DNA from: a virus
Virus record (IMG/VR): IMGVR_UViG_3300045125_000038
Coordinates: 1-37,533 of that record
Direction: 5' to 3' (one strand)
Length of the DNA: 37,533 bases
Within the stretch, counting starts at the first letter, position 1. Each line of letters opens with the position of its first letter. The position numbers were made by a program, and so were the translations under genes. Under the pieces are notes generated by a model that was not told the DNA's origin, did not search any database, and was given only the letters and a program-made list of their open reading frames with translations. Positions 12,679 through 35,878 of the stretch are shown here, piece after piece.

Positions 12679-12848
12679 TGTCGCCGCCCTCCGGTGTCTG
12701 CTCCAGCAACTCCGCCCGCAGCACCTGCACGTCTCGCGGTGCATCGATGCCGACTCGTACCTTGTCACCGCGTACCTCGACGATCGTGATCGCGGATGTT
12801 ATCGCCGATCGTGATAACCTGACCTTCGCCTCTGCTCAAAACCAACAT
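12668..12848 (-). CDS. csrA: CsrA, carbon storage regulator (phage-encoded)
   Basis: About 60 residues, the normal size. MLVLSRGEGQVITIGDNI and, after one extra C near 12794, ITIVEVRGDKVRVGIDAP then RDVQVLRAELLEQTPEG: all CsrA strands, the 'I.VGIDAPRDV.V.R.E' signature and the RNA-contacting Leu4 and Arg of VLRAEL are present. It would bind A-N-GGA hairpins in mRNA leaders and block or stabilise them. Its own ribosome site, CAAGGAGGATTG at 12854-12865, is an A-N-GGA match, so autoregulation is possible. It begins just after a terminator. Confidence 0.88.
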
Positions 12849-15976: not shown

Positions 15977-16005
15977 ATATTATCGACGCGTTTTGCAGTT
16001 TGCAA
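15977..16005 (-). promoter_or_regulatory. Promoter C (sigma70-like) with spacer/-35 inverted repeat, for the ParB-like gene
   Basis: Minus strand TTGCAA (16000-16005), 17-base spacer, TAATAT (15977-15982). TTGCA-AAC-TGCAA (15993-16005) covers the -35 box and spacer. The core GCA-N3-TGC and its position echo promoters A and B but the flanks differ. A further related block TTTTGAAAATTGCAAAAC lies just upstream at 16012-16029. The region is locally AT-rich. Confidence 0.7.
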
Positions 16006-16054
16006 TATCACGTTTTGCAATTTTCAAAAGATTTTTGAGATTGCGAAAACGCCG

Positions 16055-17923: not shown

Positions 17924-18169
17924 GTCACCTCCGGCCCAAACAGTTTCAAAAACTCCGCCTCCGGCATCCAGTAGTCGCAATCCTCGAGGCAAAGCCCGTT
18001 GTCCTCGTTGTTCTCGGGTCACGCCGTCGTCGTGAATCGTCAGCGTGATAATGTGGCGTTTGACTGCGCTACTATGTCGCTCGCTCCACTGACAAATCGC
18101 GACAATCCTGTCGCCGACGTATCCTCGGATGTCGTCGACTGTTCGCCAGTGTGGTTTTTTGTCGCTCAC
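17920..18169 (-). CDS. Small hypothetical protein
   Basis: About 83 residues from a GTG start (VSDKKPHWRTVDDIRGYVGD). RIVAICQWSERHSSAVKRH and ITLTIHDDGVTRE follow. A frame change near 18005 leads to GLCLEDCDYWMPEAEFLKLF. Acidic end; no family recognised. Confidence 0.5.
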
Positions 18170-18541
18170 TGCCGCACCTCCGGAATCGTTGACGGCTCGA
18201 TATACCAGTGCCAATCCAGCGGATTTTCCTCACCTGCCGGCGTCCCCCACCAGCGACCGGCGACAGCATCCCACACTGACGACACAATACCGGCAGTGGA
18301 TGGATTTTTATGCCGGAATAGGATCACCGCACGCTTCTCGCCCCTCCAACTCCGCCATCGCCTCCGGCGTGACTGGCTGCAGCACCGGCAGATCGACGGG
18401 GCGGCGGTACAGCCGTAATTCAGTCACCTGCCATCCGACTGCGGTTTCGGCAATAGGCATCCACGTTATTGGCACGATATACAGCCGCTCGTCCCCAGCC
18501 TGCAGCGTTTCGCCTGGCTGCAAATCTCGATAGTATCTCAT
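18166..18541 (-). CDS. Small hypothetical protein
   Basis: 125 residues with one frame change near 18330. MRYYRDLQPGETLQAGDERL, WQVTELRLYRRPVDLPVL, EGREKRAVILFRHKNPSTAG-like junction, then VWDAVAGRWWGTPAGEENPL and DWHWYIEPSTIPEVRQ. It ends with TGA overlapping the GTG of the next gene. Related early-region proteins of unknown function occur in other phages. Confidence 0.5.
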
Positions 18542-18723
18542 CTCACCTCCCCCGTGCTATTGTAAAACCCCCTGCGTGCATCCACCTGCGGCTGCTGTGG
18601 CGGGTTCGCTCGCCGCCTGATAAACAGCCCGCAGACCCAATCAGCGACCAGCAGGAACAACGCCACGGCGCCCGCAGCCTGCGAACATGCCCAAAGCACA
18701 AACCCCAGCGTGAAATCAGTCAT
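18538..18723 (-). CDS. Small single-pass membrane protein
   Basis: 61 residues, intact. MTDFTLGFVLWACSQAAGA continues into VALFLLVADWVCGLFI, giving one or two hydrophobic segments followed by RRR as a positive-inside anchor. ATGA overlaps at both ends. Unknown role in the inner membrane. Confidence 0.6.
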   Translation of the reverse strand: MTDFTLGFVLWACSQAAGAVALFLLVADWVCGLFIRRRANPPQQPQVDARRGFYNSTGEVR

Positions 18724-19477
18724 CGTCGCGCACCTCCCGGAACAGATTCAGAATGACCACCTGCAGCGCGTCGCTTGCCGCTCGCGCTGCTCAGCAGCGT
18801 GTCGGTCTTGATCTTCACGCTGCGACGTCATCCGCACGACCTCGCCCTGAAGGTGTGCTGATCTTCGCCGTAGCCTGCCGCGCGTCGCCCTCTGCCTGCT
18901 CCGACCTCACCTGCAACCCTCGGACCTCCTCGCGTGCCGCATCGCGTTCCGCTGCCACTCGCTCCAGGTCGCTCCGCAGATCCGGCAAGTGCACCGCGGC
19001 CTCCAGCTGTGCCTGTGCCTCGCCGACTGAATCTGTGCTGTCGTCAGTTGCTGCTGCAGGTCGGTCACAGCCGCACTGCAATGTACCAGCGTCGTCAGCC
19101 TGTTGTTGACCTCGTTGCAACCGCTGACGTACCGTTGTGCAGTCTGCCATTCCTGCGTCAACGTCGCAGCCCTGCCCTCTGCCTGCTTCGCCTCGCGTCT
19201 GCCATCGGTCCCGGTCGTCACTCAGTGCTGCCAGCTCCTCGGCTGCGTCTGGCTGTGGCTCTGGCTCTGGCTCTGGCTGTGGCTCTGGCACCTCCTCGCC
19301 GATATACTCCACCAGATCCAGTGAACACTCAACGGATGTCGTGTACCGCCCGTCGTCCCACCTGTGGTTTCCGTCGGTTCCCACCCAGCCGGCATTTTCT
19401 TTGTATCGCCGCACAATGACCATTTTGCCGCCACGTGTTCGCCACGCTCCAGCCTTCACTTCCACCACCATCGTCAT
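18720..19477 (-). CDS. Coiled-coil protein with Pro-Glu repeat linker
   Basis: About 250 residues after three or more frame changes. N-terminal domain MTMVVEVKAGAWRTRGGKMV, GWVGTDGNHRWDDGRYTTSV. Then a charged linker of alternating Pro and Glu/Gln (PEPQPEPEPEPQPD), then a long heptad-rich helix (TLTQEWQTAQRYVSGCNEV, DLRSDLERVAAERDAAREE) ending VVILNLFREVRDDD, whose TGA overlaps the next ATG. Leader GAGGGGAATGACGATG resembles that of the ParB-like gene. Possibly a structural or partner-bridging protein; function unknown. Confidence 0.5.
19254..19291. repeat. Short tandem repeat GGCTCT/GGCTGT (about 6 bp unit)
   Basis: Six imperfect copies of a hexamer that encode the alternating Pro-Glu/Gln linker of the coiled-coil gene. 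Likely to vary in copy number by slippage. Confidence 0.7.
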
Positions 19478-19498
19478 TCCCCTCAAAAACCTCCCGCC

Positions 19499-19527
19499 AA
19501 AAGACCCCGCCGCACTCGCAGCGGGGT
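19499..19527 (-). terminator. Rho-independent terminator
   Basis: ACCCCGC and GCGGGGT form a 7-bp stem around a 10-base loop, followed by CTTTT on the minus strand. It closes the promoter B cassette. Confidence 0.7.
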
Positions 19528-19533
19528 GTGGTG

Positions 19534-19844
19534 TCAATCAGATTTGTTTTGCGGCTCAAGCAACCAGTCGCGGAGAATGCTGCCCGTGCTTCTTTTTCCG
19601 TCTCGGCCATCGCCAACCCGAGAATTTGCCAGCAGCCATTACCCTCGTATCGCTGCACCTGAAACATTTTGGTGCCGCCAAGGTCTTTTGCCTTACCTCG
19701 CGACACTGCCTGCTGCCATTTCTGCTGCCGCTTTGCACCGGCTTTGCCGCAAAACAACCCAGTTTCCGGCATGAACTGCCCGCCCTCGTAAAACTGGCCG
19801 TTTACTTTGCTGGCAAGTCCGCCTGATGGGGCTTTCATCGTCAT
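19534..19844 (-). CDS. Small early protein of promoter B cassette, unknown
   Basis: About 103 residues. MTMKAPSGGLASKVNGQFYE, FMPETGLFCGKAGAKRQQKW, then TKMFQVQRYEGNGCWQILGL and EKEARAAFS. A frame change near 19577 gives the end DWLLEPQNKSD and a TGA just before the terminator; without it the frame would run through the terminator hairpin, which is unlikely. Single gene between promoter B and its terminator. The leader ACTGGGAGTTGAGACGATG is identical to that of the 21978 gene. No family recognised. Confidence 0.6.
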
Positions 19845-19871
19845 CGTCTCAACTCCCAGTCAAGGTTTGTT

Positions 19872-20162
19872 TCACTCGGTCGCTCGTGCGTCCGGTGCGT
19901 GAATACTATCGGCAATCTGCCGATCTGTCAACAGGCTGTTTTCAGAATTTTCAAAAATTGTCCGGAGACGGTCGCGGCCTACCCAGGTTGTCCTGCCGCT
20001 GGCCTCTACGACCTGATAGGTAACCTGTGGCTCGTGCGGGTCTTTGCTGGGTGCAACCAGCACCCCACAGACCGAGACCGGAACCCACCGGCTCGCTGCA
20101 TGGTCGCACGCTCGCAACTCCAATCGCTGACCGTAACAAAACTCGACTCTGTTCCAGTTCAT
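19872..20162 (-). CDS. Small hypothetical protein
   Basis: About 96 residues from MNWNRVEFCYGQRLEL. Beta-rich middle: RWVPVSVCGVLVAPSKD, PQVTYQVVEASGRTTWVG. The last 30 codons run through promoter B, so the true stop may be earlier if there is a frame error near 19985. No family recognised. Confidence 0.5.
   Translation of the reverse strand: MNWNRVEFCYGQRLELRACDHAASRWVPVSVCGVLVAPSKDPHEPQVTYQVVEASGRTTWVGRDRLRTIFENSENSLLTDRQIADSIHAPDARATE
19903..19931 (-). promoter_or_regulatory. Promoter B (sigma70-like) with spacer operator, for the 19844 gene
   Basis: Minus strand TTGACA (19926-19931, consensus), 17-base spacer, TAGTAT (19903-19908). The spacer carries ATCGGCA-GAT-TGCCGAT, a perfect 7-bp-arm inverted repeat with the same core as site 1 of promoter A. 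Upstream, both promoters share TCTCCGG and GAAAAT segments at similar distances. Confidence 0.8.
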
Positions 20163-20204
20163 TCCGCCAGTCCTCCTTCGCTCGTCCTTCGCCACAATCG
20201 TGAC

Positions 20205-20502
20205 TCACTCAACTGCAACGGCTCCGGTTTGACGACCTGCCGCTGAAGCCTCGACAGCTTCTGGCCACTCGGCCCGGATTGCTGCCGTTCGCCGCGCCCA
20301 GTTCCTCGGGTGACAGTTCCTCGAATTGCTGCCGCTCCCTGCGAATGTCGCAAGCGTGCGCGTCGTGCATGACATTCCCATCCAGCCAAACAACCCAGTA
20401 GTTGCCGACTTCGTCCAGTCGCCTGCTGATGCTGCCCGCATACGGGCTGCCGTCGATACTGACCACCACCCGTTCGCCGAGCCTGAAATTTTTGCCCTTC
20501 AT
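20205..20502 (-). CDS. SH3-like small protein, unknown
   Basis: About 98 residues. The start overlaps the CsrA-like stop (ATGA). The N-terminal half FRLGERVVVSIDGSPYAG and VGNYWVVWLDGNVMHDA looks like a small SH3-type barrel. A frame change near 20312 leads into ARRTAAIRAEWPEAVEAS, a C-terminal helix seen at the end of many small phage proteins. Function unknown. Confidence 0.55.
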
Positions 20503-20693
20503 GACTGCAAATCCTCCAGCTCATCCCGCAGGATTGTCACCGACTGCGGTGCCAGAAAATTGACCTGTGCCCAGCCGTCGCCGACTTTGACGACTGTCAC
20601 ACGAATCACCTCGCCGCCAGCGGTCCTGATCCGCACGGCTTGGTCTTCGTTGCGTTTCACGGTCAGACCGCCCCTGCCTTTGTTCGACACCAT
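20499..20693 (-). CDS. CsrA-like RNA-binding regulator (divergent)
   Basis: 64 residues, intact. GLTVKRNEDQAVRI matches the CsrA first strand and turn, VIRVTVVKVGDGWAQVNF the central strands, and LAPQSVTILRDELEDL the last strand and helix, with the conserved Arg of the 'V.R.E' segment (ILRDEL). The N-terminus has eight additional residues and the first loop is longer than in normal CsrA. CsrA dimers bind A-N-GGA sites in mRNA leaders to control translation. The ribosome site here reads AAGGGAA, itself an A-N-GGA match. Confidence 0.6.
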   Translation of the reverse strand: MVSNKGRGGLTVKRNEDQAVRIRTAGGEVIRVTVVKVGDGWAQVNFLAPQSVTILRDELEDLQS

Positions 20694-20804
20694 CTCAAAT
20701 TCCCTTCGTTGAAGAAACCACCGGCGATTCGTTCGCAGCGGGGGCCAGCCGTCAGCGTGCCTGATGCTGTGCTGCGGTGGTGTGTTGTTATTGCCTCACA
20801 GCGT

Positions 20805-21017
20805 TTATTTACTCGCCCTCGGCTCGTGCGTGCGTGCCCACGCCCTCACGTCCCTGATGTTCACCACCAGACTACCGCATCCAAACGTCCGCGAAGGAAT
20901 CCGGCCCTGCGTGACTGCTGATTGCAGCGTAGTGCGGGGAATGCCCACGTATGCCGCCAGGGCCTTACCGACGGTCCAGTGTTGTTTGTCTGCCTGTGTC
21001 ACTGCCTGCCCTCTCAT
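20805..21017 (-). CDS. Small helix-turn-helix protein (excisionase/MerR-like)
   Basis: 70 residues, intact. Central region WTVGKALAAYVGIPRTTLQS followed by AVTQGRIPSRTFGCGSLVV and NIRDVRAWARTHEPRAS. The order helix-turn-helix, 'I..GRIP', then a strand pair and 'VRAWA' resembles the AlpA/excisionase winged-helix group used by phages for DNA binding and regulation. It could be the regulator for the nearby operator-containing promoters, but that is speculative. Confidence 0.55.
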   Translation of the reverse strand: MRGQAVTQADKQHWTVGKALAAYVGIPRTTLQSAVTQGRIPSRTFGCGSLVVNIRDVRAWARTHEPRASK

Positions 21018-21283
21018 TCGACGTCGTAAAACATCACCCAGCTAGCCGACACCACGCCGCCCAGCAGTCGCAGAATGCCGACCTGCGTCAGATCCTCCGG
21101 CCTCGCTTTGGCCTTTGTGTTCGCGAACCAGGCCGCCATCGACTCGCCGACCTCGCCGCGCAACGTCTCCGGCTCGTCTGCAATAACGGCAGCTAACTGC
21201 TTTGCCACCTCCAGATCCCGTTTGCACTCAATCACCACATCATCCATCGAAAATCGAGCAATCACCAAATACGTATCTTCCAT
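21014..21283 (-). CDS. Small hypothetical protein
   Basis: 89 residues, intact. MEDTYLVIARFSMDDVVIEC, LEVAKQLAAVIADEPETL and GILRLLGGVVSASWVMFYDV. Its stop overlaps the next start as ATGA, indicating coupled translation. No family recognised. Confidence 0.6.
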   Translation of the reverse strand: MEDTYLVIARFSMDDVVIECKRDLEVAKQLAAVIADEPETLRGEVGESMAAWFANTKAKARPEDLTQVGILRLLGGVVSASWVMFYDVE

Positions 21284-21296
21284 CTGTTATTTCCTT

Positions 21297-21510
21297 TTAT
21301 GAGCGAGTGGCTTTTAGTTGGTCCGCCAACGTCAAAACAGAATCTGGAATTGCGTCAAAAACATCCTTCAGTGTCACCCCCAACGCGGTGACAATAGCCA
21401 CCCACGCCTGCTGTTTCAGCTTTGCAGCGCGCGCGCGTCCGGATACAAAATTACCGCAAGCATCGGCAGCAGCCGTTCCGCAGTGCCTTCAGTTCGTCGC
21501 TGTCACTCAC
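21297..21510 (-). CDS. Small hypothetical protein
   Basis: About 70 residues from a GTG that overlaps the previous stop (GTGA). Two single-base frame changes near 21475 and 21425 are needed. The resulting sequence has LAERLLPMLAVILYPDARA and KQQAWVAIVTALGVTLKDVF, then DSVLTLADQLKATRS. Helical, with no family recognised. Confidence 0.4.
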
Positions 21511-21686
21511 TCTTCCTGCCCTCCAAAATGTGTCAAATATTCCAGAATCTGCCGCATCTCCTGAATCGCCTTGCGTGTGTCCGCCACACAGCACGCATGG
21601 CAAACCGTCCGCCCGTCCTCCAATTGCCAGCCGCCCGGCGGTCCGCTGTCCTGCCCGATCGGCCCGTTACAGTCTGCACAGTTCAT
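21507..21686 (-). CDS. Small zinc-finger-like protein
   Basis: 59 residues starting MNCADCNGPIGQ, with a GGGAGGGG ribosome site upstream. It has CADC and, 25 residues later, CHACC, a treble-clef or zinc-ribbon arrangement, then a helix DTRKAIQEMRQILEYL. Similar short zinc proteins are common in phage early regions and may bind nucleic acid or a host protein. It begins after a terminator, so it depends on read-through or an unseen promoter. Confidence 0.55.
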   Translation of the reverse strand: MNCADCNGPIGQDSGPPGGWQLEDGRTVCHACCVADTRKAIQEMRQILEYLTHFGGQEE

Positions 21687-21701
21687 TTGTTCACCCCTCC
21701 C

Positions 21702-21727
21702 AAAAATGCCCCGGATTGCTCCGGGGC
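21702..21727 (-). terminator. Rho-independent terminator
   Basis: GCCCCGGA-GCAA-TCCGGGGC, a perfect 8-bp GC-rich stem with a four-base loop, followed on the minus strand by ATTTTTG. Located just after the 21742 stop. Confidence 0.85.
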
Positions 21728-21741
21728 TGTGTTTGTTGTTG

Positions 21742-21978
21742 TCAGTCCATTTTGAATGCAACGTTTACCCGCAGCGGGTCACCAAAATCAGTCCATCCAA
21801 CAACCTTTGTGCCGTGCTGCAGCCAGTATTTTGCAAGTCGGTGGGCGTCGCGACCGTGTCCATCAGCTTTCAAAATGTTCTGCACGTCGATAACTGTGGC
21901 TGGCTGCCCGTTCATCTTGCGAGCCACCAGCTTCTGTACCATCTCAACAACGTCTTTAAGGCTTCGCTTGCTGTTCAT
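21742..21978 (-). CDS. Small early protein of promoter A cassette, unknown
   Basis: 78 residues, intact. MNSKRSLKDVVEMVQKLVAR at the start, then QPATVIDVQNILKADGHGRD and AHRLAKYWLQHGTKVVGW. The middle looks like a small helical DNA- or protein-binding fold but no family is recognised. It is the only gene between promoter A and the terminator at 21702-21727, so it is made from its own regulated unit. The 20 bases before its ATG are identical to those before the gene at 19844. Confidence 0.65.
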   Translation of the reverse strand: MNSKRSLKDVVEMVQKLVARKMNGQPATVIDVQNILKADGHGRDAHRLAKYWLQHGTKVVGWTDFGDPLRVNVAFKMD

Positions 21979-22025
21979 CGTCTCAACTCCCAGTTGAATT
22001 TGTTGTTCGTCTCACCACTGCGGAT

Positions 22026-22054
22026 ATGTTATCGGCAGTTTGCCGAAGAGTCAA
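22026..22054 (-). promoter_or_regulatory. Promoter A (sigma70-like) for the 21978 gene
   Basis: On the minus strand TTGACT (22049-22054), a 17-base spacer and TAACAT (22026-22031). The spacer contains TCGGCA-AAC-TGCCGA, a perfect inverted repeat, so a repressor bound there would block polymerase. The start codon is about 48 bases downstream, preceded by ACTGGGAGTTGAGACG. Confidence 0.75.
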
Positions 22055-22086
22055 CACCCTTTTTCCACATTTTCGGCAAAATGCCG
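22032..22086. promoter_or_regulatory. Paired operator-like inverted repeats at promoter A
   Basis: Site 1 (22032-22046) is a perfect TCGGCA-N3-TGCCGA between the -10 and -35 boxes. Site 2 (22073-22087) is TCGGCA-N3-TGCCGG, one mismatch, upstream of -35. Their centres are about 41 bases apart, near four helical turns, which would allow cooperative binding on one face of the DNA. Confidence 0.65.
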
Positions 22087-22110
22087 GAGACTGCGGAAAT
22101 CAGCGGGTTT

Positions 22111-23049
22111 TTACAACTCGTTATCAACAACCGGCCCGTATACGTACAGCCTGCTGCCCCTTAGCCACCCGCCTGACGGCTGTGGGTATGTTCTCGCCGG
22201 GCTGGCCGTTGACCCGAAATTCCGGGACCATGAGACACTGGCGTCCGTCGCAGAATACGCCGCAATCCCGCCAGTGCTCGGGATCGTCGCCAGATTGCGG
22301 ACCTCGATCGATACCCTGCCCGGGCTGACGTATGCGGCAGGAATGAAGCCAAGTGTGCTGGCTGCCCGGAAATGGATGCTGATGTTTGTCTCGATTAGGC
22401 TCGGGGCTGGGCTGTTGTCGGTGACGTTCGTGCCGCCGAATCCAAACGGATTCACAGTCACGTTTGTGGTCACGCCCTCGGTGTTCTGTGGCCAGATTGC
22501 GAGCACTGCGTTTTCGATGTCCGCTGCGCTGCACTGCCAGTCCAGCCAAGACGTGACTTGAGACGCCAACCCCGTGCTGCTGGCTGGTGTGAACCGGATG
22601 CGGAATTCTCCGGCGTCGTAGCGTTCCCCTGGTGAAGAATACCACTCCCAACGGTACACCCGCGAAATACTGCCAGCAACCGCCAGTCCGCCCGTTACAG
22701 GTGGGTTTGTGTTGTTGTTGTTGCTCCACTTTACCGCAGTCGATGCCCCAACGCTCGGGAACTGACTGCCGTAGATTCGGCTGGCGTCTGCTCCAAACGC
22801 TTTGTCAACATACCCCAGCAGCAGCCGCTTTGATGGTGTCCGAAATTGACTGCCGCCAAGATTGTATGCAATTGTGTATGATGGGTTTGTTGCTGGTGCA
22901 AACACCCTTGAGTATGCGAATGTAAGTAAATCACTACCGCTGCTGTCAAACAGAATCCCAGCCGCTGCGTTGTTGTTGTATTGCGTATTAGTGCTGACTT
23001 CGTCCACGTCGAATTCTGTCAACGTTCCTGCTGCGATATCCGCAATCAC
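22111..23049 (-). CDS. Tail-tip/receptor-binding-like protein (likely C-terminal half of the preceding gene)
   Basis: 312 residues without a break. The first codon is GTG with no ribosome site upstream, supporting fusion with the preceding ORF. Beta-rich: ADIAAGTLTEFDVDEVSTNT, YSRVFAPATNPSYTIAYNL, AVKWSNNNNTNPPVTGGLAV, RVYRWEWYSSPGERYDAGEF and WLRGSRLYVYGPVVDNEL at the C-terminus. It is the last gene of the structural block before promoter A and may contact the host surface. The function is inferred from position and composition only. Confidence 0.55.
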   Translation of the reverse strand: MIADIAAGTLTEFDVDEVSTNTQYNNNAAAGILFDSSGSDLLTFAYSRVFAPATNPSYTIAYNLGGSQFRTPSKRLLLGYVDKAFGADASRIYGSQFPSVGASTAVKWSNNNNTNPPVTGGLAVAGSISRVYRWEWYSSPGERYDAGEFRIRFTPASSTGLASQVTSWLDWQCSAADIENAVLAIWPQNTEGVTTNVTVNPFGFGGTNVTDNSPAPSLIETNISIHFRAASTLGFIPAAYVSPGRVSIEVRNLATIPSTGGIAAYSATDASVSWSRNFGSTASPARTYPQPSGGWLRGSRLYVYGPVVDNEL

Positions 23050-24401
23050 GCCCGTTTTTGTGCTGCTGTTGTAGGTGCGTTTTTGACGTAGATTGCCACC
23101 TTGCCAGACTGCGCCAAGCCCTCAGCCCACGCGCACCTTCCGCCGTATAGCGGCTCGCCGTTTGTATATCGTCGCCAGATCCGGGACCACGGACTGCCGA
23201 CTGTCCAGCCCTCAACCGTTCTTTGATCCTGTCCGCTGTAACCAAAAATCAAAACCGAATTACTCGCTCCGGCGTACATGTCCGTTTGCACTTCAGAACT
23301 GCCCAACGCTGTGTATGTTGGAACCGTGCCGGCAGTCTCTGCAATCAACTTCGATGGTGCCGTGCCGTTGCTCAGACCAAACACATGTCCAACGCTCGAC
23401 GTGACTGCCCCCGTTGACGTGCTCCAACTGACAGCAGCCGCTCGGGTGTTTCGCGTCGCACTCGCTGGTGGTGGAAACGACACAGGGCAGGTGCCGGCTC
23501 GTAGTTCGCCGTCATAACTGCCGGATGTCAGTGGTTCTTCTGCAGGCCCCGGATTGCAGGTATCAGATACAAGCACCCACGTTGACGTTCCGGCGTTCCA
23601 TTGAAACAAACACGAACCACTTCCGCCGGCTGTATATCTCGGGCTGAATCTCAGCCATCCGATATCGCCGTCAGATTGTGACCACGTGACTTGCAAATCA
23701 ATCGCAGTGCCCGGCCACGGCCCGCCCGTTGCCGTCGCTGCGGTGCAGTCTGCCGTTGCCTCAAACAAAGCCTTTACAGCCGCTGCTGTGGCGTTGTATG
23801 GAATGGTAATGGTCTCAAGGCTGGTCAGCGTCCGAACGTACACGTTGCCGCCCTGCATTGTATGGGCGTGCAGCGTGTATTCCTTGTTGGCCGTGTCGGT
23901 GGTGTAGTCAATCCATTCGACAGCCGGATCAACGGAATGGGGCATAAGGTAATCACCGCCAGACAACCCCACCGGCCCTGTCAACCGCGTCAGGTTTAGC
24001 GGGTAGTATCCTCCTGTGGGCTGGTTCTGGAAAATCTCAGGGTACGCAAACACACCGGACATTGTTGCCGATTCAACCTCAGTGCCATCCGTGCTGTCCA
24101 GTTTTACCAGCGTCAGACACTCGCTGCAGTTTGGCGTGAACGCTCGCGTGATCGGATGCCGTCTGCTGCGCCAGATCGGCCAATTGATGCTGTAAAAATA
24201 ATCGTCCTGTGGCACTGCGTAGACAAACCGATCGTCTTCAGTCCAGTCAAAGCGGATGCCGCTGATTCTGTCCGCCCCGTAATGCTGGCACCAAAGACTG
24301 CCCGGACCATACTCCCACTCAGTCACGCCCGTGCTGGCGGTTAGTCCTTTAATCGTGACCGGCTCGACTTGTTTACACTTGCAGCACCTGCCCAAAATCA
24401 T
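23046..24401 (-). CDS. Large tail-tip protein with N-terminal cysteine motif
   Basis: 451 residues without interruption. It opens MILGRCCKCKQVEPVTI, a CCxC motif that may bind metal, and has a second pair in NCSECLTLVKLD. Then a long beta-rich body with aromatic-rich stretches (YSINWPIWRSR, WDYxTD-like WIDYTTDTANKEY) and FGYSGQDQRTVEGWTV. No transmembrane segment. The last residues KNAPTTAAQKRA end at an A-run (CAAAAAC); adding one A would read on as KTGVIADIAAGTL into the next ORF. So this and 22111-23049 are probably one protein of about 765 residues. Confidence 0.6.
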   Translation of the reverse strand: MILGRCCKCKQVEPVTIKGLTASTGVTEWEYGPGSLWCQHYGADRISGIRFDWTEDDRFVYAVPQDDYFYSINWPIWRSRRHPITRAFTPNCSECLTLVKLDSTDGTEVESATMSGVFAYPEIFQNQPTGGYYPLNLTRLTGPVGLSGGDYLMPHSVDPAVEWIDYTTDTANKEYTLHAHTMQGGNVYVRTLTSLETITIPYNATAAAVKALFEATADCTAATATGGPWPGTAIDLQVTWSQSDGDIGWLRFSPRYTAGGSGSCLFQWNAGTSTWVLVSDTCNPGPAEEPLTSGSYDGELRAGTCPVSFPPPASATRNTRAAAVSWSTSTGAVTSSVGHVFGLSNGTAPSKLIAETAGTVPTYTALGSSEVQTDMYAGASNSVLIFGYSGQDQRTVEGWTVGSPWSRIWRRYTNGEPLYGGRCAWAEGLAQSGKVAIYVKNAPTTAAQKRA

Positions 24402-24410
24402 CGCTGCACC

Positions 24411-24779
24411 TCACGCACAATCTGCCGTCACAAGTCGCCATTCGCCGTCGATCCATCGGGCCTCACATGGCACTCCTGCAGCAAATCCGATCCGCTCGAA
24501 ACGATTCACGACCGTTTCGTTCCGCCCAGTGTCCACCATGTCGCCGTTTGCGTCCTTGCCCCAGACGCTCATTGTGGCTGTTGATGGTGCCGTGCCGAAA
24601 TTGCTCGCAGGTGCCAGTGCCGTATCCAATTTGCCGCTGATGTCCAGCGGTTGCCCCACGGACTGCCCCAGCATCCGACTCATCACGGATTCAATCGCCG
24701 TCGTCAGCTCATTCAGGCCCGCTGCTGTCAGCCTCTGGCCCTTCCGGAATGGCTCCGGTCGTTTATCGCCCTGCGTCAT
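24411..24779 (-). CDS. Small distal tail protein, unknown
   Basis: 122 residues, intact, starting MTQGDKRPEPFRKGQRL in an ATGA overlap. It has the helix LTAAGLNELTTAIESVMSR, then FERIGFAAGVPCEARWIDG near the end. The N-terminal 'F..GQ.L.A..LN.L' pattern is frequent in small baseplate or tail-tip proteins that carry an oligomerising helix. Likely part of the tail tip. Confidence 0.5.
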   Translation of the reverse strand: MTQGDKRPEPFRKGQRLTAAGLNELTTAIESVMSRMLGQSVGQPLDISGKLDTALAPASNFGTAPSTATMSVWGKDANGDMVDTGRNETVVNRFERIGFAAGVPCEARWIDGEWRLVTADCA

Positions 24780-25673
24780 GATTGCGCCGTCCACAGCGTG
24801 TTAAAATCGAACTTGGCAAACATGGTGTCCGAGGAATCCGCCGACAATACCCGGTCATAATCTGCCGTATCATCCCGCCACTGATGATTCCATCCGTACA
24901 CCGTACTGCCGGCTGCTGAGTTTGCGCCCCTGGCACTGTTCGCAAATCCCTTCTGCGCCTTCGCCGCAAACCTCAACACCAGTTTCCGCGTGCTCCATTG
25001 TGCATCTGTGCTCAGTGTCACTTCGTCGCTCAGGCCCTCAAACAGCAGCGTTTCTGGCAGGAATGTTTGCGGACCGCCCGGCAGCCTGAATGCCGTTTCA
25101 TTGACGCAGCCTTTCATGTTTTCCAACGTCACCCACGGCACCACCTGCACCTGATGCCATGTCAGCTTCATGCGTGCTGACCGGCTCCGGAATCATCGCC
25201 GAAACATCCGCCGGCAGTGCTTTGTTGTCTGACTCCCATTTGCAGCTTCGCCCCGGAACCGTTCGAAATTCGATGTTGCTTTGTTGGTTGTAGGTGCACC
25301 ACGTTCCGGCGGGTAATGGTGTTGGGTCGTTCGGGTCTTGCTGCTGTTGCTGGTCGCTCTGAAGTGGCGTGTAATTGATGGTAATTTTCGCCTGCGTGTC
25401 GTGTTCCAGTTGCTGGCTGCTTGGGTCTGTGATGCTGGCCTGAATGGGCTTCGGCGTCAGCTTGTCAATCGTAAAGTGATCCGCCAGCACTCCCGGCCAG
25501 TAGGATGAATAGGATGCCGGCAGACCAAACGGACCCGCCTTGTAATGCTCGCTGATGAACGCCCAGCGGTCAGCCCATGCCGTCAGAAAAATGCGAGTGA
25601 ATGACAGTTCGCCGGACCTGTTGCCAGATTCCTGCGGACTGTCTTCGTGTTCGGTGAATGATGGATATGGCAT
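24776..25673 (-). CDS. Distal tail protein, unknown specific role
   Basis: About 298 residues in two frames that join near 25175. The first part starts MPYPSFTEHEDSPQESGNRS and has FTIDKLTPKPIQASITDP and KITINYTPLQSD followed by a short Gln run. The second part reads MKLTWHQVQVVPWVTLENMK and LPGGPQTFLPETLLFEGLS, ending FDFNTLWTAQS. It directly follows the tape measure, where distal tail and hub proteins are encoded; the beta-rich sequence fits. No motif lets me choose among them. Confidence 0.5.
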
Positions 25674-25679
25674 GTTCTA

Positions 25680-27248
25680 TTATCCCAAAATCGGAACCAG
25701 TGGCAGGCCCGTGATTCCTGTGGCAATCGCCCGCTGAACTTCCAGCGACTGTTTCGCCAGTTCAATCTGCTGCTTCGTCATTTCTTCTTGTTTCTTCGGT
25801 GCCAGTTGATCCTGCAGCCGCTGAAACATCTGCAAGGCTCCGCCGCGTTGCACCTGTTGTGCCGCTGCCTGTGCTGCCGCCTGCGGCTGCTGCGGGTGTT
25901 CCGAGTGCACCGCCTCCAAACTCCACCGGCGCAAATCCTCCGCCCTCTCCGGCGGGTTTCGGGGCGTTCCGTGCTGCCTCACGCTCCGCCCTCGCTGCTG
26001 CCAGTTGTGCGTCGATGTTTTCCATGACGCTTGTGGTTGCTGCTGAAGTCTCCGGAGGCTTGAACCCGGTAAACTCCTGCATGGCCTGCAACGTCGGTTC
26101 CGGTATCGTCAGGACTTCATCTGACAACCCCAAGGCAAACGCAATTTGCTCCCCGAGTTGCTGGCTGCCGCGCTCCATCGCGCCCACATGTTTGACGCAC
26201 CTGTGGCGATGTTGCTCATCGCCGTGCTCGTGTTCGCGCAGATCCAATCCAGTGCCGCCTTCGCGTAATTCCGGGATGTCCTCAAACAACCCCGCCCACA
26301 GGTTGCCCATGTCGGCCACCAATGACCCGACCACAACCCCGATATCGGCAAATAGTCTGACGTGCTCGTGAACCACTCGCCCGTTGCAGACAGCATCGGC
26401 CGAATGTCCACGCCAAGTCCATCCATGCTTTGCATCGCACTGATCGACCACTGCAGGAACTGATTCGCGTACGGTAGCACCTGCCGCCGATTTCAATCGC
26501 CAACAATTCCAGATTAGTCTGCGCCTTGGCGAACATGCCCGCTGTCGATTGCGCCACCTTGTCCTGAAATCCGGCCAGCCGTCCGCTTCCGGTTGTCAGG
26601 TCGCTCAGTGCTTGCTTTACCATGTCTGCCGATATCGCACCGTTTTCCATGTCTTTTTTCAGGTCGCCCATGCTGCTGCCAGTCTGCTCTGCGATGACAG
26701 CCAGCGGACTGAAACCTGCGTTTATCAGCTGCAGATTTTCCTGACCTGTCAGCCGTCCCGCCATCTGCACTTGCGACATCGCATAGGCCAGATCCTGCAG
26801 CTTTTCCGTGCTGCTGCCGGCCACCTCGGTCAGTCATGCCCATAATGGGCACCACCTGATCCGATGACATGCCCATCCGCATCATCATGCTGGCAGACTT
26901 CGCCAGATCCTGCGTGCCGAACACCGTTTTCATGTCGATGTCACGCAACTGCTGTAAGCATGGCCTTGCGTTTCCAGCGGACCCGTCAGGACTTCAAACT
27001 CCATCGCGGTCTGCTCAGCTCCGGCTGCCAGTCGTCATCATCGACGTTGCACCCTTGGCAATCCCAGCCGCTGCAAACGCTGCCCCAGTGGCCCTCCCAA
27101 ACTGGTCAGGCTTTCAGTGCAGACCCTGTCGGCTGGTCCGTGCTGTCACGCCGGTCATAGCCTTGGCTGCCTGCCCGGCTGCGGACTGCACTTTCTGCAT
27201 ACCGTCAGCCGAAAAAATCACCTGTGCTTCTTGGACGGTAACGGCCAT
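25680..27248 (-). CDS. Tail tape measure protein (short)
   Basis: About 520 residues once frame breaks near 27120, 26950, 26830, 26470, 26300 and 26170 are bridged. It starts MAVTVQEAQVIFSADGMQKV, a common tape measure opening. It continues MKTVFGTQDLAKSASMMMRM, GRLTGQENLQLINAGFSPL, NGAISADMVKQALSDLTTGS and FQDKVAQSTAGMFAKAQ, all typical of the conserved N-terminal tape measure domain. The C-terminal third is Ala/Gly/Pro-rich and then helical (KQQIELAKQSLEVQRAIA). At roughly 0.15 nm per residue this implies a tail near 78 nm (family-based estimate). Confidence 0.8.
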
Positions 27249-27412
27249 TATTTCACGTCCTGCTTCTGCCAGATGTCTTCAGGGCACCAACACCCGCTAT
27301 ACACTAACGCCTGATACATGGTCAACCGGCTGATTTGCTCAGCCGTCCATCCATACTTCTCGGACAGTCCCCGGAAGATTGCCGCCCACGGTACCGTCCG
27401 ACGTGACGGCAT
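27248..27412 (-). CDS. Tail assembly chaperone, downstream frame (GT-like)
   Basis: About 54 residues from ATG at 27412: MPSRRTVPWAAIFRGLSEKY, then GWTAEQISRLTMYQALVYSG, ending EDIWQKQDVK. The pattern 'W..IF..L...YGWT.EQI..LT.YQ..VY.G' is typical of the second tail-chaperone product that is often made by frameshifting. Its TAA overlaps the tape measure ATG. It may be translated separately or as a C-terminal extension of the upstream frame. Confidence 0.55.
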   Translation of the reverse strand: MPSRRTVPWAAIFRGLSEKYGWTAEQISRLTMYQALVYSGCWCPEDIWQKQDVK

Positions 27413-27913
27413 TGTCACGCCGTCGCCGGTTCCGTGGCTTCGAGTTTCCCAGGATGTCCTGTTCGTGCGCTCTGTGCATCGCTTCAATTATTGCCTGAAT
27501 ATCGTTGAACCATGCGATGAAATTGCAGCCCAACTGGATGCCCTTGTCTGCAGGCAATGCCGGCGGGAACTCCTGCGGATGATGCGCCGACAATGCCCGC
27601 CAGACGTTCCACGCCAGCCCGCGGAACGATCTGTCAAACCGTTCCTCATCCTGCATGGTGGCAATCAACGGACGCGCAATCGTCTCGCCGCAATCTTCAG
27701 GGCCTGCTGTCGCACTGCAGGATCTGTGATCGACTCAATCCCCGCGTACGGATTGCCCATTCGCATCAACATGGCCTCCTCTTTGCGCGCGTACTCCGCC
27801 AGCGGGAAGATTTGCCATCTGATACGTCTCGCCGTCTTTTGTCAGCGTTGCGGTGCGTCCGCCGACCAAAGATTAAACAACCCGTCCGCCACGGTTTCTA
27901 CCTCAAAGGTCAT
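27339..27913 (-). CDS. Tail assembly chaperone, upstream frame (lambda G-like)
   Basis: About 190 residues. It starts MTFEVETVADGLFNL in an ATGA overlap with the tail tube stop. Frame-corrected reading includes GRTATLTKDGETYQ, EYARKEEAMLMRMGNPYAG, then after a missing A near 27683 ARTIARPLIATMQDEERF and FNDIQAIIEAMHRAHEQ. It lies between tube and tape measure, where tailed phages encode chaperones that coat the tape measure. A canonical GGGAAAC heptamer is in the correct phase for -1 slippage near the end of this frame. Confidence 0.55.
27444..27450 (-). promoter_or_regulatory. Candidate -1 ribosomal slippage heptamer GGGAAAC
   Basis: On the minus strand the zero-frame codons are CTG GGA AAC, so G GGA AAC fits X XXY YYZ. 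It lies in the tail chaperone pair, where programmed slippage is well known. After -1 slippage the given sequence reads only ten codons to a TGA. The convincing downstream frame is the third one, so a sequence error between the site and 27415 would be needed for a fusion. Confidence 0.4.
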
Positions 27914-28324
27914 GCAATGATGTCAAACGCTGTGCCTGACTTCGACGGGCGCACCCTGCCCATCGAATGCGTAATCAATCGCCACCGGGTCTCCGCTGTC
28001 AGCGTCAAACGTGATCGGCCCCACTTCAGTGATCACGATGGTGCCGCTGATGTAGTCGTCTGAGTCTGCATGGAACTGCGCCGCCACTTCGTCACCGCGT
28101 GCCAGTGGCTGCGCACCGCCAGCGTGCAGCATGACAGTAACAGTGCCGGACCACTCACCCACGCCGACTGTGGTTTTGCGCCAGCCGCCTGTGCTGTTCG
28201 TAGCGTACTTTGCAGATGCTCCGCCAATTGTCAATTCCCACTTGCCTGTGTGGTCAACCTCGGCCGGAGTTCCGCCGGTTTTGAAGGTCATGGACTTCCC
28301 GGTAAACGGTGTGCCTGCTGCCAT
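27910..28324 (-). CDS. Major tail tube protein
   Basis: About 138 residues, the right size for a siphovirus tail tube subunit. MAAGTPFTGKSMTFKTGG at the start, then KWELTIGGASAKYATNS, TTVGVGEWSGTVTVMLHAG, and FDADSGDPVAIDYAFDGQG, an alternating beta pattern common to tube proteins. A single frame change near 27935 gives the ending KSGTAFDIIA with its TGA overlapping the next ATG. It comes directly before the chaperone pair and tape measure, the conserved siphovirus order. Confidence 0.65.
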
Positions 28325-28339
28325 CGTATCTGCTCCTGA

Positions 28340-28750
28340 TTATGGTTTGGCGATGCCTGAGTAAAGAATCCCGATTTTCAAATTCGTTGCCGTTGTGGCA
28401 ACGCCAAGAATGGTCACAAAATCACCGGACGCAAGGTCCGCATACGGTGCAATGCCTCCGGCGTTCACGCTGGCAACGTACACCTGCCCCACCGTAAACG
28501 CTGAATTGAATGTCAGGTTGCCACCGTAACAGTATTGCAGCGGCTGCCCGTCGCTCGCTCCGTGCATCGCAATGCCGATAACCTTTGACGATGCCAACAC
28601 GTCAGCGTCGCAGGCTTTCAGCTTGTTGCTTGCTGTGGTGTCTGCGTAGACGGGCTGGCCTGCTGTTACCGTGCCGCCAGCAGTGCCGTAGCCAATCAGG
28701 CTGGTAGCGGTTTTCACTACGCTTGCCGCTGTCACTGAAACGTCTGCCAT
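28340..28750 (-). CDS. Beta-rich structural protein (decoration or tail associated)
   Basis: 136 residues, intact. Gly/Ala/Thr/Val-rich beta sequence: TAGQPVYADTTASNKLKACD, SKVIGIAMHGASDGQPLQY, VGQVYVASVNAGGIAPY. Its sequence style, and exactly the same length as 32066-32474, resemble capsid cement or decoration domains. Its place between tail terminator and tail tube is odd for a head protein. It is either a second cement-like protein or a tail-tube accessory. Confidence 0.6.
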   Translation of the reverse strand: MADVSVTAASVVKTATSLIGYGTAGGTVTAGQPVYADTTASNKLKACDADVLASSKVIGIAMHGASDGQPLQYCYGGNLTFNSAFTVGQVYVASVNAGGIAPYADLASGDFVTILGVATTATNLKIGILYSGIAKP

Positions 28751-28753
28751 GCC

Positions 28754-29189
28754 TTACACCCCAGTATGATAAAAATCGAACTGCACGGAGGTCGTCCAGA
28801 TGCCTGTCGCGTCGTCCTGTGTCGTCGTGATTTGCCCGGATGGTTTCGCCGTTGCCACTGTCACCGCTGACCCCGTGTAACCCTCGTTCTGCCAGCTTAA
28901 GACCGCCTGTTGCCCGATTGCCTTGCTGCGGTCGTAGTCGATCGACATGCAGGCCAGACGTCACCGCTGACCGCCAGCCTACTGCTGAATTCGTCCGCCA
29001 GGCTGGCTCACTGACCGCATCGAACACTACCAGGTCGTCAAAATACCCATCATCGTCCGCGTCATCATCGAGAGTCTCTGCGTACTGATCGACACTGGCC
29101 ACCAGCCTGTCAACCGGGACCAGGTCGCACAGTGCAGCCGTTGCGGCCCACCATTCGCCTATTGCCCGATCAATTCCAGTCTCTGCCAT
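28754..29189 (-). CDS. Tail terminator/completion-like protein
   Basis: About 145 residues. First half MAETGIDRAIGEWWAATAAL with an acidic DDDADDDGYFDDLVVFDAV. After a frame change near 28955 it continues SIDYDRSKAIGQQAVLSW and ends IWTTSVQFDFYHTGV. The predicted mixed alpha/beta layout, length and position before the tail tube fit tail terminator proteins, which cap the tube and join it to the head. No decisive motif. Confidence 0.5.
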
Positions 29190-29919
29190 TATCTCACCGT
29201 CGCCTTTTTCTTGCCCGCCTGTGGCCTGAGTTGCTGCTTCAACATGTTCCCGATTTCAGCCCCGAACATGTTCAGATTGGCTTTCTACTGCCGGCTTTAG
29301 GAATGGTCGTGCTTTGCCGTCCTGCCGGAACTCCCACATGGCCATGTAACCGGCCACCTTTTTGTCAACGTATGTCCTCGCCTCCGGCTTCTTGCCCTTC
29401 ATCCGCAGTTCTGCAGTGATGGACTTTCTGCCCTTGCCTGTCCTCATCTTTGGAGGCTCGCCGGGCTTGCTCGCTCCGCTGCCTTCCTTGAAGTCTCCAA
29501 ACGCCGCCCCGGATGTGTCAGCATCACCTCGACAGCGTCACTCCGATTGAATTCTCGTTCCCTCGCCCTCTGATCCCGTCGTGCCTGCGTCGCCGCCTTC
29601 TTCTGCTGCCTTCGCCTGTCCCTCAGTGCCCGCTTCGTCCGTGTCACAAACTGCTTAGCGGCCTTGCGTGCTTTGCGTGCCTGCTTGACCGCTCGCCGTG
29701 TTTGTTTCGCAGCCTCGTTTGCTGGCTCGAATCGCCGCTCTGCGTGCTCGCTTTGCGGTCTTCCGGCCAGCCCTTGCCAGTGTGTTGCTGGCCAGAAACT
29801 TTTCGGTCTTGCGTGTGACTCGCTGGATGCGTTTTCGCGGCTTTAACTCGCTTTGCCACGGCCTTATTGGCCTTGGCTCGCAGCTTTGCCACCGCACTCT
29901 TACGCCTCCGCCGTGCCAC
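29189..29919 (-). CDS. HK97 gp10-like head-tail protein with a histone-like Lys/Arg/Ala-rich N-terminal half
   Basis: About 243 residues after at least four frame changes. The N-terminal 150 residues are extremely basic and Ala-rich in a repetitive style: MARRRRKSAVAKLRAKANKA, RAGRKTAKRARRAAIRASK, TRRAVKQARKARKAAKQF and RDRRRQQKKAATQARRDQ. The C-terminal part GEPPKMRTGKGRKSITAELR, GYMAMWEFRQDGKARPFL matches the HK97 gp10 pattern (GxPPxxRTGxLxxSI, then xxEFGTxxxPARPFLRPA), a protein of the head-tail interface. The stop overlaps the next start as TAATG. The basic region is much longer than is usual for the family. Confidence 0.6.
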
Positions 29920-30157
29920 CGTTTGCGGCCTCCTGTTTCAGTCTTGCCCTCTCCTTCAGTTCTGCCCGCTTCTGCCGTGCCCTCGCGTTCTTTCGGTCCT
30001 TTTCTTCTCGGCTCGGCCCTGTGTATTTCCTGCTAACCATCTGCTGTGCAATCGACCTGCACAGCTTCGCCGCACGCTCAAGGCTTTTGCCGGTCGCCGT
30101 CTCCAATGACCGCATCAGTTCCGGCCTGCGGTCCTTCTTTTTATTCGTGACGCTCAT
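29900..30157 (-). CDS. Basic helical head-tail region protein, unknown
   Basis: 85 residues, intact, starting MSVTNKKKDRRPEL in an ATGA overlap with the previous gene. Strongly charged and helical (SREEKDRKNARARQKRAE), a likely coiled coil. It overlaps the start of the next gene by 20 bases. No recognised family; its position suggests a structural or assembly role. Confidence 0.55.
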   Translation of the reverse strand: MSVTNKKKDRRPELMRSLETATGKSLERAAKLCRSIAQQMVSRKYTGPSREEKDRKNARARQKRAELKERARLKQEAANGGTAEA

Positions 30158-30772
30158 GTGTCGCACCGGGTGCAAATCAGATAGGGCAGATCCACCCGGT
30201 CAAACTGGTTTTCCAGTCGATCAATCCGATACGCTTCCCCGTCTGCATTTGTCACCGTGTCCGCCACGTTTACGTCTCTGAGGCTCTGCAGAATGCAGTA
30301 GTATTCCCCGACCATTGCACGACGTTTGCCGGCCTGTGTCGCGGATATCTCAGCACTCGACAGAAACCACTTGGCCCGGATCTGTGCCACCTCGGAGTCA
30401 ACAAACTGCCGCTCGGCCTTTGCTGGCCCTGTGGCTGTTCGTCGTTGCTTCAGTGTCACAAACTCAGTCAACTGCAGGTGGCAATAAGACCGCTGCAAAG
30501 CCGTCTCTGCAGGATCTGTGAACATCACCACCCACGTTGTGGTTGCGTTCCCTCGCTTTACCCTGAACGTGTCACCTGCGGCCACTGCTGTGGTGCTGGC
30601 TGGCGTCCAGATATGTGCCCGCCTGATCGTCTGCCGCTCTGGCTGTTCGATCAGTCGGACAGTGCGAGGAATCACCACGCCTGCGGAATTCGTCCACGCT
30701 GCCTGCTCACCGAGTTCATCGGTGTTCAGGATCAGCGCAAACGTCTTCCGCAAACTGGTCTCTCAGGCTCAT
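30154..30772 (-). CDS. Head-tail connector/adaptor-like protein
   Basis: About 205 residues. Start MSLRDQFAEDV at 30772. A missing T near 30741 breaks the frame before FALILNTDELGEQAAW. The rest is ordered, with NSAGVVIPRTVRLIEQ, RRAHIWTPASTTAV and ending LPYLICTRCDT, with its stop overlapping the next ATG. The opening, and the place between capsid and gp10-like genes, fit head-tail joining proteins of siphoviruses. Specific family not proven. Confidence 0.55.
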
Positions 30773-31012
30773 CGTGCGGCTCGCTGTCTGCTGTGGTGCT
30801 GCTGCTGCAGACTCTGCCAGCGTGATAAAATCACGACTTGCAAGGCTGTGCAACATCGACTCATCCACCTCATTCACGGAAACGCTGGTCTCTTTATTCT
30901 CGAACACCTCCAGCATCACGCCCGTGGAAAGCATGGTGCGGAATTGTCGCTTGTTCGTCTCTTTGTTCCGGCCTTCAGATGCCGGCCCCAGGCTCACTCG
31001 ATAGGTTTTCAT
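30769..31012 (-). CDS. Small head-module protein, unknown function
   Basis: About 80 residues starting MKTYRVSLGPASEGRN, with GGAAGGAG upstream. Moderately charged, then Ala-rich at the end (ITLAESAAAAPQQ). In the given frame it reads into the next gene. A one-base change near 30790 gives an end overlapping the next ATG in an ATGA arrangement, which is the usual junction in this module. Position after the major capsid gene and before the connector is common for short phage proteins of unknown role. Confidence 0.6.
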
Positions 31013-31038
31013 CGTGTCAACTCCTTCCGCCGAAGAAT

Positions 31039-31093
31039 GCTGCCACCGCATGGCGGATGCAGTGGCAGCCACCGGCAGCCGTCGCTGCCGGTG
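31039..31093 (-). other. Tandem perfect hairpins after the major capsid gene
   Basis: On the minus strand CACCGGCAGC and its complement form a 10-bp stem with a four-base loop (31070-31093). GCTGCCAC and its complement then form a second, 8-bp stem (31039-31069). No U-run follows. Lying between the capsid stop and the next start, they could stabilise the capsid mRNA 3' end or partly reduce downstream transcription. Confidence 0.65.
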
Positions 31094-31116
31094 TTGCTCA
31101 AATCACGCCGCCGTCA

Positions 31117-32037
31117 TCAGGTCGTCAGAGTGCAAAGAATTGATGTCCACCATGCGAAGTATCCCACGTTGTAGCGGGCTTCGGTCATGAACTTCACGTC
31201 CTTCGTTTCCAGGTCGTCGATGCCCTTCATCATGCGGGTCAGCGGCTCACGTCGCTGAAACACGAAAGGCTTCACAGCTTCGCCCGTCTTGAACAGGTAC
31301 AGCTTGACGTCACTGGTCAGGTACGGGCTGGACGACGAATATTCGGACGATCCACAACCACGTTCGTGCTGTTGCCAATCAATTCCGATTCCAGTGCATC
31401 GTACACCAGATCCCGCAACGCCAGCGGAACCAACAACGTCAGGTCATTCAGTCGCCCAACCGTCGGGCGGTTGTACAGCTTGCCCTGATCATTCTTAAAC
31501 GCCAGCATCGTCTTCACCATCTTACGAATGGCGGTCTTCACCTCTGCAACAGTCGGTGCCGAGGTGCTGACAACAGTGCTTGTGATGCTGTTGGACTGCG
31601 TGCCACTGTTGCCCCATGCGTGGTCAGTGTCGAAGAAATACTGACCGTCGAAGCAGGTGCTTGACGCTCCCTGTTCCAGCACGGAAAACCACAGCTCATC
31701 AGGGTGATGCGGCTTCGATGCCCAACTGCTCCAGGACCGGCCCGTACTGTCCGAGGTTGTCGTCAGCAAGGTCCGTTTTCTTGATCAGCAGGCTGCTTTC
31801 CCAGTGCTTGTTTTCAAGCACAAAATTCGCGGCCCGCAGTTCGGAAAACTGACGCTCGCCCAACCACTCACGCATCCCCGGCATGTTGCCGATCCATCCG
31901 TACTTCTCGGATGTCCGCACGCTGGAAGCGTCGTAGCAGACATTCGGGTAAAACGGAGTTGCTGCGGAAACACGGTTGTCAAACTTCGCTGTCAGATCAC
32001 GCAGCTTGACCTGTGCTGATGCAATATCAATCGCCAT
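31117..32037 (-). CDS. Major capsid protein, Mu gpT-like
   Basis: About 307 residues, forming the head shell. Start MAIDIASAQVKLRDL, with AAAGGG eleven bases upstream. Family features: FYPNVCYDASSVRTSEKYGW, MREWLGERQFSELRA, ENKHWESSLLIKKTDLADDN, then HPDELWFSVLEQG and FDGQYFFDTDHAW, the gpT signature of a filled-in 'D-G-Q-x-F-F-x-T-D-H' stretch. The C-terminus VKPFVFQRREPLTRMM and YNVGYFAWW is in a third frame. Frame breaks at about 31715 and 31341 (one T missing from ATATTTCG). Gene order and family make this a confident call. Confidence 0.88.
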
Positions 32038-32065
32038 TGTCGAAACCCTTTCAGGTCAAAAATGA

Positions 32066-32474
32066 TCAGCCCAGAACGTCAATCATGACATCCATCTGAG
32101 TTGCGGAAACGTAGTTCACAGCCCGACCGATTCGGGATGCACTCGTGCTGGTTGCGGTCGTCGTGAAATTGTCCGTGGCGTAGATCAAATCTCCCGCAGT
32201 CGCCTGCGTGAAACTGGTGCCAGTCAGACGGAAAACGCCATCAGTCCACAGCTCCACTGACCTTGTCACCGGCACTGCCGCCGCTGTTGTCGCACTGCTG
32301 ATACACGATGCCCGCAAACGCGTTCGCCCCGGCGTTGTCGTCATTGGTGACGTATCCAGTGGACGCATCCCAAAAGGCAATCGTGTTCTGATACAGGTTC
32401 ACGGCTGCTGCTTTGCACTGGACGATATCGCCAGCGTCCTGCATTAACACCACCTGATTCGCTGTTACTGCCAT
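32066..32474 (-). CDS. Capsid decoration-type protein
   Basis: 136 residues after one frame change near 32255. Beta-rich, small-residue sequence: MAVTANQVVLMQDAGDI at the start, GYVTNDDNAGANAFAGIVY in the middle, ATAGDLIYATDNFTTTA and MDVMIDVLG at the end. Position between protease/scaffold and major capsid protein is where tailed phages encode head-stabilising decoration proteins. It has the same length and a similar style to the protein at 28340-28750, so the two may share a fold. Confidence 0.6.
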
Positions 32475-32487
32475 CGGTCAATTCTCC

Positions 32488-35632: not shown

Positions 35633-35851
35633 AAGATTCCGAGGACCGTCCGAATGCCGCCGGATGCCTGGCGGCCGCAGGTCTGCAATGCGTGCGTCCA
35701 GCTCTGCCAGCCACGTGCTCGTCGGCTCCCTCTGCACCATCTGCCCGTCAACGGTGTAGCTCACCACAGGCGCACCGGACAGCAAAGCACCCTCGACTTT
35801 GTCGCGGATACCCTCAAACAGTGCCAGACGGTCTGCAGCGGATCGTGCCAT
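35629..35851 (-). CDS. Head-tail joining protein, lambda gpW-like
   Basis: About 74 residues, close to the roughly 68 of lambda gpW, and placed directly before the portal as in lambda. The sequence MARSAADRLALFEGIRD, then GAPVVSYTVDGQMVQREP, then LDARIADLRRQ fits this family of head-completion proteins that close the portal after packaging. One frame change near 35680 restores the typical end GGIRTVLGIL. An alternative ATG lies 12 bases upstream at 35863. The stop TGA overlaps the GTG start of the portal gene. Confidence 0.7.
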
Positions 35852-35878
35852 GCTGCGAATCATGCCGCAGGATGGCAG

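Follow-up and report, generated by a model that had tools for sequence, protein, structure and literature searches.

An operator that fills the 17-nt spacer between the -35 and -10 hexamers is the classic geometry of steric repression. Lambda CI pairs operators about two turns of DNA apart and forms loops between single operators five or six turns apart; the available part of the same account names no four-turn case (PMC8053113). Phage accessory or moron loci provide a second point of comparison, for control regions that stand before differing genes (PMC7067206).

Promoter A of the uncultured phage described here resembles OR and OL of lambda in that palindromic operators overlap a sigma-70 promoter and a second operator lies a near-integral number of turns away. 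It differs from them in its spacing of 41 bp (3.9 turns, against about two in lambda), which is conserved at A and in two other virus records (G001 and G002) but not at the sister promoter B; moreover, the records studied here yielded no CI-like gene. The cassette behind promoter A is like a phage moron or accessory cassette in that a small ORF without a family match, provided with a promoter and a terminator of its own, is set among phage genes, but it differs in its conserved pair of operators and in a leader common to several cassettes. In uncultured phages, regulatory sites can rarely be tested from sequence alone; here a 12-letter operator, an exact spacing and the absence of the second copy at one sister promoter are clear enough for a direct bench test, and the operator is a handle for finding its regulator and other cassettes under the same control.

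Promoters A and B and their operators

The window, that is, the whole stretch of DNA analysed, is an entire IMG/VR virus record (G000; 37,533 nt, classed linear). The virus probably infects bacteria; a planctomycete host is a guess. In family searches, which covered minus-strand ORFs only and leave plus-strand genes possible, all recognised genes lie on the minus strand: the right part of the window encodes portal, head and tape-measure proteins, and the left part a polymerase clamp, DnaB, RusA and pieces of a DNA methylase. The portal has distant matches among named phages (<60% identity, 142 records), in which the promoter-region DNA, the 78-aa protein of cassette A and the HTH_17 protein discussed below found no match. 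Promoter A is positioned after the structural block and promoter B about 2.1 kb beyond A, and the two are best explained as sigma-70-type promoters that would drive small gene cassettes in a tailed phage.

Promoter A is formed by TTGACT-17-TAACAT on the minus strand (22054-22026; -35 hexamer at 22049-22054, -10 hexamer at 22026-22031), and its 17-nt spacer consists of 2 nt and a 15-nt operator, TCGGCA-AAC-TGCCGA, at 22032-22046 on the minus strand (TCGGCAGTTTGCCGA), which has no mismatch to TCGGCA-N3-TGCCGA. On the same strand, the upstream operator CCGGCA-TTT-TGCCGA occupies 22073-22087 (TCGGCAAAATGCCGG) and departs from the pattern at one position. The preliminary description had placed a perfect palindrome inside the spacer and a one-mismatch copy about 41 bases upstream, and both stand: the first is found at 22046-22032, and the two centres are exactly 41 bp apart. 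This distance equals 3.87-3.94 turns, a near-integral phasing that agrees with the further proposal of two sites on one DNA face. The stretch given for the pair, 22032-22086, does contain both sites but ends one base short, as the upstream site reaches 22087. If transcription starts 6-8 nt beyond the -10 hexamer, the centres are estimated to lie at -19 to -21 for the main operator and at -60 to -62 for the upstream one.

Two readings of the palindromes were set aside on their form. A terminator at the upstream palindrome finds no T-run beside it. A MerR-type spacer activator works on a spacer of 19-20 nt, whereas the spacers at A, B, G001 and G002 all measure 17 nt.

Promoter B (TTGACA-17-TAGTAT, minus strand, 19931-19903; -35 hexamer at 19926-19931, -10 hexamer at 19903-19908) has its spacer filled by TCGGCA-GAT-TGCCGA at 19909-19923 on the minus strand (TCGGCAATCTGCCGA), again without a mismatch. 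Upstream of it, 7/12 operator positions are wrong at an offset of 41 and 6/12 at an offset of 42, the latter being the degraded counterpart of the upstream operator (19951-19965, minus strand, 42 bp away). Because six or fewer mismatches are found at 8.2% of all window positions, promoter B has no detectable second site, which upholds the earlier remark that B combines a perfect first site with a degenerate second. The region upstream of B can be aligned with that of A and shows one inserted base and a ruined right half; read from this alignment, A and B are sister promoters, of which B lacks the second site.

Over the whole window, TCGGCA-N3-TGCCGA has two perfect copies (19909 and 22032) and two with one mismatch (22073 and 31878), against simulated means of 0.003 and 0.21 in 300 first-order Markov windows. 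None of the 300 contained two perfect copies, and in none was a perfect copy accompanied, at a distance of up to 60 bp, by a second copy with one mismatch or fewer; chance as the source of the operator pair is excluded. Copies with up to three mismatches are only modestly numerous (41 against 26.6, a count reached in 1/100 shuffles), and promoter-like sites showed no excess in a promoter scan of 18001-37533 (5 against 5.9). The case stands on the operator, not on the hexamers alone. Elsewhere in the window, at 15989-16027, two 17-nt direct repeats (CGTTTTGCA...) lie 22 bp apart and adjoin a promoter-like TTGACG-16-AAAAAT at 16058 (minus strand); they are perhaps another operator set.

It is very likely, judging from the arrangement and recurrence of the sites, that the operator pair is a real switch. 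Under the reading we prefer, to which we give a probability of about 0.6, a dimeric repressor at the spacer operators would shut the cassettes, and a second dimer near -61 would help at A. The dimeric DNA-binding protein on the spacer operator would block RNA polymerase, and a second dimer, bound at the upstream operator and so facing almost the same side of the helix, could stabilise the first through contact across a short bend; promoter A would be shut more tightly than B because of this stabilisation of the spacer-bound dimer. That a dimer at the spacer operator represses sterically appears quite probable, while help at A from a dimer nearly four turns upstream seems somewhat better than an even bet. 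Repression as such is likely, and cooperativity is plausible.

Conservation of the operator pair

A scan of IMG/VR contigs for the spacer operator together with the -35 and -10 letters returned a single locus, L003 in record G001, and a looser -35 returned three: L003, L029 in record G002, and L039. An upstream copy at exactly 41 bp is present at L003 and L029; L039 is a single site without a second. Since G002 had first been met by a two-site pattern, its return with the looser one-site pattern serves as the unbiased test. Apart from the pairs at L003 and L029, neither G001 nor G002 contains a site with one mismatch or fewer anywhere in its record. Seven loci were found without the -10 letters, six of them (all besides L003) with one site each and no TA after it, and a search with two 10-letter cores gave 16, among which L003 and L029 share the promoter layout and the other 14 were set aside by eye. 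A partner at 41 bp is known from A, G001 and G002 only, which makes three upstream copies in all; by their contig names, G001 and G002 share a sample number.

Conservation of the upstream site and of its spacing had been set beforehand as a check on the pair, and the result is favourable: the site recurs at exactly 41 bp in G001 and in G002, with the DNA between the two sites agreeing at 6-10/18 positions. Between A and G001 the upstream site agrees at 15/15 positions, the stretch from there to the -35 hexamer at 10/18 and the main site at 14/15; the corresponding figures are 14/15, 8/18 and 13/15 for A and G002, and 14/15, 6/18 and 13/15 for G001 and G002. In the site cores, A matches G001 at 12/12 and 12/12 and G002 at 11/12 and 12/12. 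Both sites of G002 are perfect, because G002 has a T at the position where A departs from symmetry.

The two relatives differ in how much they can contribute. The window and G001 can be aligned across about 12.4 kb, with 75-77% DNA identity over the late genes. As a control, the 12-position pattern was placed at 7,287 gap-free positions of these gene alignments: it is unchanged at 794 of them, and two such patterns set 41 bp apart are both unchanged at 135 (1.85%). G001 alone is therefore moderate evidence, being a fairly close relative in which both patterns can survive by chance; the one-mismatch site at 31878, inside a gene, is changed in it. Between G002 and the window, blastn finds no more than 340 bp of matching gene sequence and 58 bp at the promoter; its divergence around intact sites makes G002 strong evidence at the sequence level and gives it the most weight. 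The same two records bear on the view that the upstream copy is functionless and common by descent only. The identity of G001 over the late genes and the 1.85% of placements would allow for this, but G002 shares little else with the window and yet has a perfect site at the same distance (between-site DNA 6-8/18 in its comparisons), and the homologous stretch at B has decayed, so that we consider descent alone a very improbable explanation.

A different role for the upstream site is suggested by the surroundings of G002, where a gene with its own Shine-Dalgarno sequence reads in the opposite direction just beyond the site, and where CCGACA-17-AAATAT can be drawn by eye around it: the site might be the operator of a second, divergent promoter, and a relic at A and G001. 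CCGACA, however, matches only 4/6 positions of a -35 hexamer and is absent from the promoter scan, and next to the upstream site of A and of G001 the adjoining gene has the same orientation as the cassette, yet the site is still kept. We therefore think this role very unlikely.

The four phage promoters (A, B, G001 and G002) can be aligned through the leader, and three of the four have kept the upstream site. Such retention, and estimated centres near -61 and -20, would also suit a regulator that acts as an activator at the upstream site and, once more concentrated, as a repressor at the spacer site, so that the outcome would be a pulse instead of a cooperative lock, as class I activators sit near -61. 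The hexamers of A and B, on the other hand, are near-consensus and should need no activator, and B does without an upstream site. Activation from -61 is accordingly quite unlikely in our judgement, and repression at the spacer operator, aided at A from upstream, is retained as the preferred reading.

Cassettes, leader and candidate regulators

The first genes behind the A, B and G002 promoters are dissimilar, and the leader ACTGGGAGTTG is common to all; at A the leader ACTGGGAGTTGAGACG, with its Shine-Dalgarno sequence, lies at 21979-21994 on the minus strand and is shared with B and the relatives. Because BLASTP found no mutual similarity among the A, B and G002 products, promoter, operator and leader precede different genes. 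A short hairpin around the Shine-Dalgarno sequence appears in the predicted fold for A and G001 and is absent for B and G002; even for A, 196/200 shuffled leaders fold at least as well as the real one.

Cassette A consists of a 78-aa ORF (21742-21978, minus strand) without a family match, 52% identical to the first gene of G001, followed by a terminator-like hairpin at 21708-21727 (minus strand; GCCCCGGAGCAATCCGGGGC-ATTTTT, 21727-21708), whose predicted folding energy of -19.1 kcal/mol was equalled by 0/200 shuffles. The ORF of cassette B as listed covers 19329-19844 (minus strand), its true end being uncertain, and a predicted hairpin followed by CTTTT, at 19504-19527 (minus strand), missed by the promoter/terminator scan, stands after or inside it (19527-19504, -22.9, 4/200 shuffles as good). 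Whether B is a single-gene unit is uncertain because the listed frame crosses this hairpin, while another frame stops just before it. In G002 the leader core is followed by a 105-aa ORF, which matches PHROG 9437, a family without an assigned function (E 3.1e-12), and then by a hairpin (-21.7, 5/200). A role of the operators as recombination sites at the cassette ends was rejected: no copy with two or fewer mismatches occurs at the 3' ends.

Parts of the cassettes are met in other records. The N-terminus of the cassette B product, FYEGGQFMP (19715-19844, minus strand), also occurs in ORFs of three virus records without the promoter (L004-L006). L040 and L041 were found by the leader alone, and their records hold no operator copy with fewer than two mismatches; the record of L041 contains a 38-bp stretch that is 92% identical to the A terminator. 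A hairpin near-identical to that at 21708-21727 is present at about 7839-7875 of L050, in G005, a record without the operator.

The regulator was sought by Pfam and PHROGs searches of 72 and 38 minus-strand ORFs and by six-frame searches for named domains, in records that are fragments or of uncertain completeness. Six-frame searches found HTH_3 in 0/4 records, S24 in 0/3, no LexA DNA-binding domain in the window, G001 or G002, and no integrase domain in the same three records, which thus gave no sign of lysogeny. No cognate repressor could be named among the window proteins by the Pfam, PHROGs and domain searches. The sole helix-turn-helix found is an HTH_17 match at 20960-20829 (E 1.3e-6, below the curated cut-off), within a 70-aa protein between promoters A and B (20805-21017, minus strand) that is weakly like recombination directionality factors (E 1.7e-5); we regard it as a candidate regulator, no more. 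An autoregulatory role for the cassette A product was considered and is unsupported by its fold and by structure and profile searches. Its AlphaFold model, built from two sequences, has the order helix-helix-helix-strand-strand at a mean pLDDT of 67.4, and its likeness to a winged helix is suggestive. Foldseek gave best E values of 7.0 in the PDB and 2.7 in BFVD, none of 12 chains compared by VIA-align reached a Z of 2, and a profile search of PDB sequences gave a best E of 0.6.

Two CsrA-like matches (PF02599) were found in the window, one between the two cassettes (20514-20666, minus strand) and one split over two frames (12698-12848, minus strand), and a third in the related record G005. 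Control of the leader by CsrA is only a thought. A wider proposal would treat pair, promoter and leader as a portable module placed on unrelated one-gene cassettes, which would form a scattered regulon under a repressor at the DNA and phage CsrA-like proteins at the leader, with the presence or absence of the second operator tuning each cassette; we hold this to be decidedly unlikely.

Operator copies in cellular genomes

Genome contigs were scanned for TTGAC-N3-operator-N-A-N3-T, which gave four loci against about two expected by our own arithmetic (19 fixed letters, 257 Gb). They belong to Bacterium D16-56, a Xanthobacteraceae MAG, a Clostridia MAG and Mesorhizobium, none of them a likely host. 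At two of the four, L007 and L009, the spacer of a TTGACA-17-TATAAT promoter is filled by the 12-letter operator, as at promoters A and B. Both loci differ from promoter A in having unrelated downstream genes and no partner site at 41 bp (11 and 9 mismatches). As their consensus hexamers exceed chance, spacer operators do occur in cellular genomes, so that the range of the single form extends beyond these phages. It follows from L007, L009 and promoter B, all without a partner, that a single operator works, or at least exists, alone.

These loci, and the fact that no phage regulator could be named, lend some support to a host regulator such as host LexA, which would bind the sites and let the cassettes answer to host stress. 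The genome scan, however, yielded no likely host among its four loci; exact operator copies number only one in the L007 genome and five in that of L009, and the promoter form occurs in 1/391 genomes of L007's class, L007's own. A LexA motif of this form was not seen in the LexA-motif literature searched, and in open-licence literature the operator is undescribed in the titles and abstracts on LexA motifs and Planctomycetes, planctomycete phage repressors and half-sites. We regard a host regulator as unlikely and infer that the cellular look-alikes belong to unrelated regulators with a similar box; the repressor of the preferred reading is probably encoded by the phage or by a co-resident phage.

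Further copies of the operator were observed in other settings. At L007 (3085-3113), the consensus promoter with its spacer operator stands before a CsoR-looking ORF and a P-type-ATPase-looking ORF, both named by eye. A GC-rich virus record (L019) has three copies at 914-994, two perfect and one with a single mismatch, 22 and 44 bp apart. In Mesorhizobium (L010), two perfect copies 28 bp apart at 4723-4765 adjoin a divergent GntR-looking gene and transporter ORFs, again named by eye.
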